64,000 nucleotides of DNA from Kocuria sp. (GTDB taxonomy: Bacteria > Actinomycetota > Actinomycetes > Actinomycetales > Micrococcaceae): contig NZ_JAUNTS010000002.1 of the NCBI RefSeq assembly GCF_030538595.1, positions 62,001-126,000 of the forward strand. Reading direction: 5' to 3'. Of the stretch, positions 11,544 to 60,806 are shown piece by piece. The notes beneath the pieces are model-generated. The model saw only the letters and a list, made by a program, of their open reading frames with translations. It had not been told where the DNA came from and ran no database searches. Position 1 is the stretch's first letter. Each line of letters begins with the position of its first letter. The translations under genes and the position numbers were made by a program.

Positions 11544-11608
11544 CTGCCGAGTGTCCGAGTTTGGTCGTTTCAGTGGGCTTGAAACGACCAAACTCGGACA
11601 CTCGGCAG
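11544..11608. repeat. Palindrome A1: perfect 29-bp inverted repeat between glpK and the DUF559 gene
   Basis: The left arm (11544-11572) begins CTGCCGAGTGTCCGAG and the right arm (11580-11608) is its exact reverse complement, with a 7-base loop. It ends four bases from the stop codon of the minus-strand DUF559 gene and 15 bases from that of glpK, so it could serve as a two-way terminator. There is no T-tract. A closely related copy (A2) lies on the other side of the DUF559 gene. Confidence 0.9.
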
Positions 11609-11612
11609 AGTC

Positions 11613-12578
11613 TTAGGGGCGTAGGAGCCAACGCTCCAGGGCGGCCAGACGCGTGGTGTCCCGTAAGTCATCAACGACGACGAAGCGCACGTCCCATCCG
11701 TCGTCGCGCAAATCTGTAAATCGGCCCATCTCATCACGATATTGACGCCAATTGCGTTGATGGATTTCACCGTTGTACTCCAGGGCCTTTTTGCGGTGAG
11801 GCCAGGCCAAGTCCAGGTAAACCAGCCTTCCGTTACGCAGCACAATCCTGTAGTCGTGGATCGGTTCTTCCACTCCGCAAGACAGAGCGAACAGGCGCAG
11901 TACGGTTTCCATCGGTGAACGCACTCCTGGGCGACTGCGTTCAACAGCCAGATGTAGCCGCGCTTTGCCCCTGGCCCCGTTGGGGATTTTTGCCATGTGA
12001 CGGTCGAGTGTTTCCGGCAGCAGTGGCGCGGGGCGGCCGAACTGGTCCACCACGTTTGAGAGAACGTGGTCGACCGCCACCACGCTGCGCCAGCCCACCA
12101 GCCACTCCTGCAGCATCAGCAGAGTTTCCAGGCCACCGGTCACACATGAATCCCAGGAGCCTTCTTGGTCGTACAGGGCCCGGCGTCGTCTTCTGAGACT
12201 GAGCTCAGTACGTCCCCGGTTGCGAGTGCTCTCAGGTACGGCTAATTGCGGTAGCTGCGGAGTGGGGCGTGCGGCCGAAGATTCGCGCAGAACATCGTCC
12301 AACCAGTGCATTCCAGCCATGAGAGGGATGCCGAACATTTGCGCAGCTGAGATTCCAGCCACCGCAGACCCAGGTCCGAACATAGGTTGTGCCAAGGCTG
12401 CAATCTCCCAGTCGGCAAGATCTGAACGCTGCATCGGTGAGTCGAACCGGGCCCACAGCCCGTGGGCCAGCTGCACCATGTGCGGGTCGCGGGTCATGGC
12501 GTGGGTGGAAGAAGGCCAGTCTGCGGCTCGCAGAACGGTGGGTTGGGCGAATCGAGGTGTTTGGGGCATGAGAAGCAT
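11613..12578 (-). CDS. DUF559-type protein with predicted restriction-endonuclease-like C-terminus (copy A)
   Basis: The 321-residue protein has an N-terminal region with GISAAQMFGIPLM, like the first domain of many actinobacterial DUF559/AbiEi-like proteins. The C-terminal DUF559 (Vsr-like, PD-(D/E)XK fold) domain has candidate active residues D256 (YLDLAW) and E267 (ALEYNG) and then GWDVRFVVVDDL. It is homologous to the gene at 59476-60459: the same domain order, D-x10-E spacing and ending. A -10 TAGCGT lies exactly seven bases before the ATG, so the message is probably leaderless, which fixes the start at 12578. It may be a nuclease linked to the flanking palindromes; that is inference. 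It could instead be a solitary defence or TA-related protein. Function unknown. Confidence 0.78.
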   Translation of the reverse strand: MLLMPQTPRFAQPTVLRAADWPSSTHAMTRDPHMVQLAHGLWARFDSPMQRSDLADWEIAALAQPMFGPGSAVAGISAAQMFGIPLMAGMHWLDDVLRESSAARPTPQLPQLAVPESTRNRGRTELSLRRRRRALYDQEGSWDSCVTGGLETLLMLQEWLVGWRSVVAVDHVLSNVVDQFGRPAPLLPETLDRHMAKIPNGARGKARLHLAVERSRPGVRSPMETVLRLFALSCGVEEPIHDYRIVLRNGRLVYLDLAWPHRKKALEYNGEIHQRNWRQYRDEMGRFTDLRDDGWDVRFVVVDDLRDTTRLAALERWLLRP

Positions 12579-12585
12579 GCTCCGG

Positions 12586-12628
12586 ACGCTAATCGCAGGA
12601 GCCTGGACATCGGGGAGTTATCCACAGG
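12586..12628 (-). promoter_or_regulatory. Shared promoter module of DUF559 copy A (15-nt element plus TAGCGT)
   Basis: On the gene strand CCTGTGGATAACTCC (12628 to 12614) is followed after 22 bases by TAGCGT (12591 to 12586), then seven bases to ATG. Copy B has the same 15-mer, a 21-base gap, TAGCGT and seven bases to its ATG. Read on the plus strand, the element contains TTATCCACA, identical to the classical DnaA box. Confidence 0.65.
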
Positions 12629-12687
12629 CCATCCGGGGTGGACAGGGTAACCAAGAGCACATCACCAAGCTGTGGAGGAACCTACCC

Positions 12688-12752
12688 CTGCCGAGTGTCC
12701 GATTTTGGACGTTTCAAGCTCACTGAAACGACCAAACTCCGACACTCGGCAG
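12688..12752. repeat. Palindrome A2: imperfect 29-bp inverted repeat related to A1
   Basis: Arms at 12688-12716 and 12724-12752 with a 7-base loop. The left arm begins CTGCCGAGTGTCCGA, as in A1; the arms differ from perfect pairing at two positions. It lies about 110 bases upstream of the DUF559 start, so copy A sits between two members of one palindrome family. Confidence 0.85.
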
Positions 12753-13758: not shown

Positions 13759-13844
13759 CCGGGCTCGCCGTTGGCAAACAAGCTACCCCCGTACCGTTCT
13801 CGGTGCGGGGGTAGCTTGTTTGCCAACGGCTCTGATGAGCCCGG
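13759..13844. terminator. Palindrome D: 86-base compound hairpin downstream of rpsD
   Basis: A perfect 25-bp stem (13767-13791 with 13806-13830) has a further ACCG/CGGT pairing inside its loop and an outer CCGGGCTC/GAGCCCGG pairing (13759-13766 with 13837-13844). It probably ends the rpsD transcript, although there is no T-tract. Its size and perfection resemble the palindromes beside the DUF559 genes, but no such gene is near. Confidence 0.7.
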
Positions 13845-23840: not shown

Positions 23841-23912
23841 AACTCGCCGAGATCATGGAAATGTTGGTCCTGAGCGCCGAAAATCGAACGTTTCCATGAT
23901 CTCGGCGGAGTT
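23841..23912. repeat. Palindrome C: long inverted repeat between aroB and efp
   Basis: The arms are AACTC plus GCCGAGATCATGGAAA (23841-23861) and the matching right arm (23891-23912), with one bulged base and a 29-base loop. It may terminate aroB. The arm shares GCCGAG with palindromes A1 and A2, and the 29-base loop equals that of palindrome B2. No DUF559 gene is adjacent. Confidence 0.75.
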
Positions 23913-59381: not shown

Positions 59382-59432
59382 CGGTACGCAAATCGCCCAT
59401 GTGGTGGCCTTTTTGTGGCGATTTGCGTACCG
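59382..59432. repeat. Palindrome B1 downstream of the crt operon and DUF559 copy B
   Basis: Perfect 16-bp arms CGGTACGCAAATCGCC (59382-59397) and complement (59417-59432) with a 19-base loop. An extra GGTACGCA lies at 59362. It may end both the crt operon and the convergent DUF559 gene. Its core recurs in palindrome B2. Confidence 0.85.
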
Positions 59433-60459: not shown

Positions 60460-60466
60460 GCGTTCC

Positions 60467-60508
60467 ACGCTAGGCATGGTTACGCGCGCTTCAGGAGTTA
60501 TCCACAGG
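60467..60508 (-). promoter_or_regulatory. Shared promoter module of DUF559 copy B
   Basis: On the gene strand CCTGTGGATAACTCC (60508 to 60494), 21 bases, TAGCGT (60472 to 60467), seven bases, ATG. It is the same arrangement as copy A. The plus strand again reads TTATCCACA. Confidence 0.65.
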
Positions 60509-60556: not shown

Positions 60557-60609
60557 TTGGTACGCAAATGGCCACTGATCGAGGCGGTTCTTGGTGTTTT
60601 GCGTACCAA
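60557..60609. repeat. Palindrome B2 upstream of DUF559 copy B
   Basis: 12-bp arms TTGGTACGCAAA (60557-60568) and complement (60598-60609) with a 29-base loop. It shares the core GGTACGCAAA with B1. Confidence 0.75.
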
Positions 60610-60806
60610 TTGAGGGCGAATGCGGACCGCAGGTGGAGGCACGACGACGGGGCGGGTGCTCCGCCACGGCAGCATCCCACCCAAGGCTCATGAGACACTG
60701 TGTGATTGATCCTTCCGGGCGCAGGGTGCGGCGTCGTCGTCGTGGTTGCTGACTGGCGTGAGCTGAAGCATCCCCCGGAACTACCAACCGTCATGAAAGG
60801 CCCGCT

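Follow-up and report, generated by a model that had tools for sequence, protein, structure and literature searches.

The 64-kb stretch of a Kocuria sp. genome analyzed here (the window) carries two loci, A and B, at each of which a single gene for a predicted nuclease lies between two copies of the same palindrome, the core of which is private to each nuclease paralogue (Table 1). At locus A, four bases separate a palindrome with perfect 29-nucleotide (nt) arms from the stop codon of the nuclease gene, and the first base of a near copy lies 110 bases from its ATG; coordinates and arm comparison thus confirmed the arrangement given in a preliminary description of this DNA. The loops of the two copies are mutually inverted. 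The second locus proposed there, with an equal layout and another core (GGTACGCAAA), was also found, with hairpins on both sides of a gene whose product is 32% identical to that of gene A. The long open reading frame of locus B is open to position 60684, running past the upstream hairpin. At both loci the palindromes measure about 50-65 bp, and the two units, whose outer neighbors encode an FGGY kinase, ribosomal protein S4, a UbiA-type protein and LepA, have space for only one gene of nuclease size.

When folded as single-stranded DNA, both family-A copies and the downstream family-B copy were far more stable than shuffled sequences (z-scores of -13.9 and -9.0 for the downstream and upstream copies of locus A, and -7.4 for the downstream copy of locus B); the upstream B copy was weaker (-4.1, with 1 of 200 shuffles folding equally well). 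No terminator-type T tract was found at either family-A palindrome. A known RNA element was rejected, as Rfam had no match anywhere in the window.

Table 1. Nuclease genes and associated palindromes in the 64-kb window.
Feature	Position	Strand	Remarks
Family-A palindrome, downstream copy	11544..11608	none	perfect 29-nt arms, 7-nt loop; among the 26 copies compared
Nuclease gene A, 321 amino acids	11613..12578	minus	AbiEi-like N-terminal half and Vsr/EDxHD-like C-terminal part, both by family profile
Family-A palindrome, upstream copy	12688..12752	none	29-nt arms, 90% complementary; loop inverted with respect to the downstream copy
Orphan palindrome CGCCGAGATCATGG	23845..23907	none	resembles the family bracketing the paralogue at C15:108 kb
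Family-B palindrome, downstream copy	59382..59432	none	core GGTACGCAAA...TTTGCGTACC
Nuclease gene B, about 328-334 amino acids	59476..60480	minus	start approximate (about 60460-60480)
Family-B palindrome, upstream copy	60559..60607	none	imperfect

Private palindromes at nuclease genes and elsewhere

This Kocuria genome encodes 10 nuclease paralogues; an eleventh, weak match inside a frame of 1,420 amino acids (C12:186 kb, L004) was excluded. Nine of the 10 genes had matching flanks above the threshold of the test described below, eight of the nine as hairpins, and the cores differed from gene to gene. The paralogue at C3:228 kb (L043:2290-3111) has inverted-repeat flanks without hairpins; it adjoins a gene of the phage-integrase family (tyrosine recombinase).

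Further copies of the cores were present elsewhere in the genome. Allowing up to 3 mismatches, the locus-A core gave 26+22 matches against 0+0 for a reversed control, which amounted to 29 places as counted from the match list, and the locus-B pattern was found at 14 places against 0 for its control, in excess of chance. Orphan copies were likewise present for the families of the paralogues C19:109 (at least 26 places) and C18:24 (at least 9 places), these counts from a joined query of six other families being lower bounds because 40 of 139 candidates were scored, as well as in K. coralli. Several orphans sit directly after stop codons. The spread of family A is uneven, with 11 of the 26 copies compared lying on one contig, C13 (200,996 bases). 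Palindromes were also seen at or near contig ends (C4:1, C6:37, C12:44, C19:465, C20:130555, C23:62, C24:1, C25:196 and C27:95); as several copies are so placed, short-read assemblies may break at palindromes, and the copy numbers are perhaps underestimates.

For 26 of the 29 family-A places, compared as 65-base sequences (two at contig ends and one more were excluded), the arms were conserved and a 9-nt loop was variable. The arms change in a paired way more than shuffled alignments do: double-change cells numbered 21 against 6.3 in shuffles (reached in 0 of 500) and pairs with double changes 8 against 4.1 (2 of 500), these shuffles taking no account of kinship among the copies. Sliding the pairing removed most of the signal.

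The association extends well beyond this genome. Of 79 genomes sampled class-wide, 54 encoded proteins that match the nuclease profile. Nuclease loci were collected by protein similarity, not by hairpins, with the genes located by profile search. At each locus, the alignment paired 650 bases around the start with a 430-base segment around and downstream of the stop. From 142 loci of the order, 124 non-redundant ones were retained (2 had no gene, 13 were more than 90% identical to another and 3 had short flanks), and the same filters reduced the class-level set from 66 to 62. Matching flanks, above the 99th percentile of 14,216 mismatched pairs, were found at 98 of the 124 order-level loci (about 1.2 expected); 89 exceeded the 99.9th percentile, and at 76 the gene's own downstream flank was the single best partner. 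Outside the order, 44 of 62 loci exceeded the 99th and 38 the 99.9th percentile of 3,478 mismatched pairs. The null set omits mismatched pairs with more than 40% protein identity, and its largest value was 129.5. It follows that most such nuclease genes do have matching flanks, as the preliminary description would lead one to expect. Random positions spaced at 1 kb passed the threshold in 3.0% of 2,665 cases (1.6% of 2,100, or 34, in this Kocuria genome, where the stretches were picked around hairpins). Together, the mismatched-pair and random-position controls reject chance inverted repeats in high-GC DNA as an explanation.

The core is specific to the locus. Among the 31 genomes with at least two loci, 84 of 104 same-locus comparisons gave matching flanks, against 7 of 352 comparisons across loci; a hand-grouped subset of 76 loci in 17 genomes gave 65/76 and 6/324, respectively. 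Many of the matching segments were palindromic, with mean arm scores of 16.8 and 16.3, against 8.4 in shuffles, and 78 of the 98 matches reached an arm score of at least 11 on at least one side, the highest score of all shuffles being 17. Fifty-three of the 98 matching pairs were direct and 45 inverted. Hairpin similarity rose with protein identity (Mantel r of 0.32 for 80 loci; the highest value among 2,000 permutations was 0.075).

Two variants of the flanks were observed. At L203, L206, L224, L227, L233 and L242, in other families of the order, the nuclease genes have flanks with GTGATCATGCA-like motifs and no clear hairpins; at several loci such motifs form direct repeats within a flank and are inverted across the nuclease gene, possibly a second style of the same system. 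At C18:144 (L042), C19:109 (L044), L208, L212, L222, L236 and L241, whose proteins form one subgroup, the palindromes have a common central CATCAG/CTGATG-like motif and differing outer arms. From the sequences, this motif and the outer arms may represent common and specific parts of recognition, respectively.

Locus A and palindrome sites in other Kocuria species

In four of 27 Kocuria genomes, namely this one, K. subflava, K. coralli and K. soli, a gene-sized insert lies between the FGGY-kinase gene (presumably that of glycerol kinase) and the S4 gene. In 22 the interval is about 86-290 bases between alignment ends, so the sites empty in sister genomes that were to be sought do exist at locus A; the remaining genome is fragmented and was undecided. 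Among the four species with the unit, the nuclease is 46-52% identical, as compared with 89-92% for the FGGY kinase and 93-98% for S4, and the ratio of nonsynonymous to synonymous substitution rates in close nuclease pairs is 0.11-0.33. These values indicate that the nuclease gene changes fast, yet is under selection. Frequent transposition of the nuclease gene itself, as in a jumping gene, is not supported, since gene A stays in place in the four species.

The locus-A core differs among these orthologues: GAGTGTCCGAGTTTGGTCG in this genome, GAGTGTCCGATTGCGTRCCG in K. coralli, GAGACCTCCGTTACGGCCC in K. soli and GAGACCGAGGTTTCTGCCCG in K. subflava. This genome and K. coralli have the outer part of the palindrome in common and differ in the inner core. 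A strict pattern for the outer part retrieved 12 copies in this genome, all with its own type of inner part, and 10 copies of the coralli type in K. coralli, 2 of them beside its gene. Degenerate copies of this genome's type were found in K. soli (2) and K. subflava (1), and the pattern gave no copy in the other 23 Kocuria genomes (the 22 with an empty site and the undecided one). In K. subflava, a looser orphan of its own core was found by synteny.

Two regions of this genome, picked for their many hairpins, were aligned to K. subflava, K. coralli and K. soli; they contain 13 hairpins of this genome, for some of which a comparison was possible on just one side or on neither. At several sites of the two regions, a sister species has a palindrome at the same intergenic site with another core. 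Thus, at C13:45160 and C13:48927 this genome carries family-A palindromes, K. soli carries decayed versions of them, and K. subflava has a GAGACCTCCGTTTCAGCCC palindrome, whose core is like that beside the K. soli nuclease gene; K. coralli lacks a palindrome at the first site and has an unrelated inverted repeat at the second. Two family-A copies surround a sodium/hydrogen-exchanger gene in this genome (C13:169817/171625). There, K. subflava has a single palindrome, whose core is that of the palindromes beside its A-orthologue; K. soli, of which the left side only was examined, has at the left flank one palindrome of another family (CGAACCCTCGCG), and K. coralli has none. At C13:41808 all four species have a palindrome at the left flank, with a CATCAG..CTGATG or similar center and differing outer arms, and at C13:53982 this genome and K. 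subflava have related but different cores and K. soli none. The palindrome at C13:49902 has no counterpart in K. soli or K. coralli, and the K. subflava contig ends there. At the terminator-like C13:168402, K. soli likewise has an inverted repeat. At C13:179479/180848, the flanks are about 6.2 kb apart in K. coralli, the sole species matching, and no palindrome adjoins them there.

This site-by-site comparison on C13 shows that the position of a site is often kept while its core changes. Such a pattern fits conversion or replacement at existing palindromes; alternatively, new copies could prefer the same gene ends, or selection could maintain structure there. It should be borne in mind that the intergenic regions of the sister species are too diverged for the borders of an element to be placed.

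The predicted nuclease

The locus-A protein itself had no Pfam match at E<=1 and no NCBIfam or PADLOC match, so the assignment of gene A as a nuclease rests on the profiles of its relatives. The nuclease domain of an 81-member family profile matched 3hrl (E of 2.2e-5), 3r3p (0.0019), PvuRts1I (0.0026) and, weakly, Vsr (0.14), while a smaller profile of 23 members matched 3r3p only, at a weak E of 1.6. The entry 3r3p, annotated as a mobile intron protein, we take to be the EDxHD homing endonuclease I-Bth0305I. Residues E224, D256, H273 and D282 are invariant in the 23 relatives and, in our mapping, would correspond to the EDxHD motif; in the full set of 81, E224 remains invariant and D256 is almost so, and H273 and D282 are not among the invariant positions. 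At E<=0.001 the only Pfam models matched within the 81 members were MTES_1575 (43 members), DUF559 (23), AbiEi_1 and AbiEi_4, and no member matched an HUH/Y1 domain; a PADLOC model for AbiEi was matched by 54 of the 81 at the same threshold. The layout of the protein suggests that the N-terminus binds DNA and the C-terminus acts as a nuclease.

No relative of the locus-A protein was found at E<=1e-5 in 72,556 plasmid or 50,697 phage records, and relatives of the C19 paralogue were found in 3 plasmid records and 1 phage record. The unit behaves like a chromosomal resident, as do the TnpA-REP genes described in PMC8266576.

The 11 nearest named homologues all come from Kocuria. In other Kocuria genomes we observed homologues of the nuclease that were split over two matches, one with stops (G002:C132:6373-7346, G009:C3:143224-144215 and G023:C143:805-1742); these are probably decayed copies.

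A proposed repeat system linked to a nuclease

The anatomy of the unit and the private link between gene and repeat are well established. Action of the protein on its own repeats would most simply account for this link, for the orphans matching the local nuclease in both this genome and K. coralli, and for cores that change next to a fast-changing protein, though it is not proven. We consider it moderately probable that the locus belongs to a system of palindromic repeats linked to a nuclease, which would work like a REPtron, the unit of repetitive extragenic palindromes (REPs) and their transposase, but with a different enzyme. The analogy drawn in the preliminary description between this hairpin-plus-nuclease unit and REPs with their associated tyrosine transposases (RAYTs) is thereby supported by the flank matching, the locus-specific cores, the orphans and the empty sites. 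We infer that the nuclease recognizes, cuts and copies the palindromes. The AbiEi-like N-terminal part would bind its cognate palindrome, probably as a dimer in which each subunit takes one arm, and the Vsr/EDxHD-like domain would nick or cut the palindrome, either in the loop or once it has been extruded as a hairpin. If the break were then repaired from another copy, palindromes could be replaced, duplicated or inserted, sometimes together with the DNA between two copies. As the specificity of the nuclease shifts over time, the repeats would be renewed to match it and old copies would decay in place.

Several results weigh against this reading. In the comparisons between species, with one strain per species, we saw no clean insertion with target duplication. 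Flanks did not match at 26 of the 124 order-level loci and 18 of the 62 outside the order, nor at the paralogue C23:90 kb of this genome, and locus B itself barely passed the flank test (17.0 against a threshold of 16.5). Random positions in the loci of other species passed in about 8% of 565 cases (about 45), more commonly than in this genome. Hairpins, taken as an arm score of at least 11, stood on both sides in only 59 of the 98 matches, the rest being in part repeat pairs such as GTGATCATGCA. In family A, further pair types were not above shuffles (276/500), and other genes are bracketed by six of the seven close pairs of copies. By the strict pattern, the K. subflava core occurs only beside its own gene, and there is no B core in the 4 kb surrounding the K. 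subflava orthologue of locus B. In addition, simple common descent of the unit would also give the correlation between cores and proteins.

The bracketing of other genes bears on an explanation in which the palindromes are general landing or recombination sites, the ends of cassettes, and the nuclease is one passenger among others. Any gene could then end up between two matched copies, either when a circle with one copy integrates or when a bracketed segment is copied. Family A has seven pairs of copies separated by under 2 kb, one of which brackets the nuclease gene. The other six enclose a Gp49-like and helix-turn-helix gene pair (toxin-antitoxin-like), a small gene without a Pfam match, a DUF3500 gene, an NAD-binding gene with a small gene, an antiterminator-like gene (PRD/CAT_RBD) and the sodium/hydrogen exchanger. 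The copies of a close pair differ on average at 5.1 positions, compared with 10.9 in random pairs (0 of 20,000 permutations came as low), and in five pairs each copy is the other's nearest, or nearly so; the antiterminator-like and exchanger pairs do not consist of close copies. Moreover, the exchanger segment bracketed in this genome corresponds to a single hairpin in K. subflava and to none in K. coralli. Since six of the seven close pairs enclose other genes, matched copies do not bracket the nuclease alone, yet of the genes tested it is only the nuclease family for which bracketing is the rule. The concern that the same palindromes might lie equally often beside unrelated genes therefore holds in a weak form, but matches at random positions are rare. 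Cassette ends would leave unexplained why private, matching flanks surround one family at 79% of its loci, versus 3% of random positions, and we regard this explanation as unlikely.

AbiEi-family proteins are antitoxin-type DNA binders, and the match of the family to AbiEi models, together with the orphans directly after stop codons, would agree with palindromes that serve as operators and two-way terminators of the nuclease gene, the orphans having spread passively as terminators useful at gene ends. An operator downstream of the gene would be odd, however, there is no T tract at either family-A palindrome, and the orphans, which retain the core private to one nuclease, did not turn up in the 23 Kocuria genomes not known to hold the A unit; we thus deem this account likewise improbable. 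A simple operator is not favored, given the downstream copy and the orphans, and chance terminators were rejected as the whole story because the cores are private and repeated and the T tract is absent, which upholds the earlier argument against them. That an HUH/Y1 transposase of the RAYT or IS200/IS605 type, encoded elsewhere, moves the palindromes, with the nuclease only linked to them, perhaps regulating the repeats or living as their parasite, would be in keeping with palindromic repeats as known HUH substrates (PMC8266576 and PMC3733652). Nevertheless, each core is private to one nuclease gene, the 81 family proteins, the only ones scanned, had no HUH match, and the GTAG foot is absent from the consensus of the 26 family-A copies and from the arms of the 14 family-B copies (two family-A copies have GTAG just outside), leaving this option quite doubtful. 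A unit of defense or genome conflict, with the nuclease restricting DNA that enters the cell and the palindromes serving as self tags or as its promoter-operator elements, could account for the AbiEi-like N-terminus in 54 of 81 members and for the fast change of the protein. The A and B units, however, fit one gene, their neighbors lend no support to a defense island (no search for an AbiEii partner was made), relatives are rare on phages and plasmids, and the place at locus A is stable in four species; we find this explanation very unlikely.

The nuclease-linked repeat system resembles REPtrons, as portrayed in PMC3733652 and PMC8266576, in several respects: there too the enzyme gene is flanked by the palindrome, many extragenic copies are often near gene ends, units within one genome are repeat-specific, and the flanks are sometimes plain terminal inverted repeats (TIRtrons). 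These sources also depict the TnpA-REP gene as behaving more like a housekeeping than a transposase gene. Dispersed extragenic copies were found here for A, B, C18:24, C19:109 and K. coralli. In contrast to REPtrons, whose enzyme is an HUH/Y1 transposase, the enzyme here is a Vsr/EDxHD-like nuclease with an AbiEi-like part, the palindromes (about 50-65 bp at A and B) have no conserved GTAG tag, and at locus A the core differs between orthologues in the same place. As for homing endonucleases of the EDxHD type and Vsr, the likeness lies in the C-terminal nuclease domain, by profile, and in target size, given that I-Bth0305I is described in PMC3943268 as a dimer on a target of nearly 60 bp, close to the size of the palindromes; in contrast, the gene described here lies outside introns, its presumed target is uninterrupted and two copies flank it. 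The N-terminal part resembles the AbiEi antitoxins of the type IV AbiE systems by its matches in the family, though not in the locus-A protein itself, but the unit is a single gene with a C-terminal nuclease domain. Miniature inverted-repeat elements and REPINs are short, dispersed palindromic sequences without genes, as are the orphans; unlike them, each family here is tied to one nuclease gene.

Given that neither the HUH domain nor the GTAG tag was found and that the target is not interrupted by the gene, the system is neither a RAYT nor a classical homing endonuclease gene, and it therefore appears to be a new kind of system working like a REPtron, with the caution that literature coverage is incomplete. 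In titles and abstract openings, outside most subscription journals and bioRxiv, we found no report that connects DUF559, MTES_1575, AbiEi or Vsr-like nucleases with dispersed palindromes, and no described role for proteins of this profile. These results suggest an undescribed partnership of enzyme and private repeats of about 60 bases in many actinobacteria. A bolder version, which we put forward as possible rather than probable, holds that these form a class of actinobacterial drive-like elements in which the Vsr-like nuclease recognizes and cuts its own dispersed palindromes of about 60 bp, repair spreads and homogenizes them, nuclease and palindromes repeatedly switch specificity in place (the gene gaining a new core, old sites receiving new copies and relics decaying) and the palindromes become landing sites for bracketed ordinary genes.

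The private palindromes provide each nuclease with a predicted DNA target. If the nuclease does move or convert its repeats, it would be a second, unrelated solution to the problem solved by REPs and RAYTs, and a natural experiment in the joint change of a DNA-binding specificity and its many sites. In high-GC genomes, such a system could also account for one class of hairpin repeats and bracketed gene cassettes.

Apart from the features in Table 1, the window has a 30-nt inverted repeat (97%) after the S4 gene, at 13767-13830, which may be a terminator; near the equivalent place, K. subflava and K. soli have a hairpin of different sequence.

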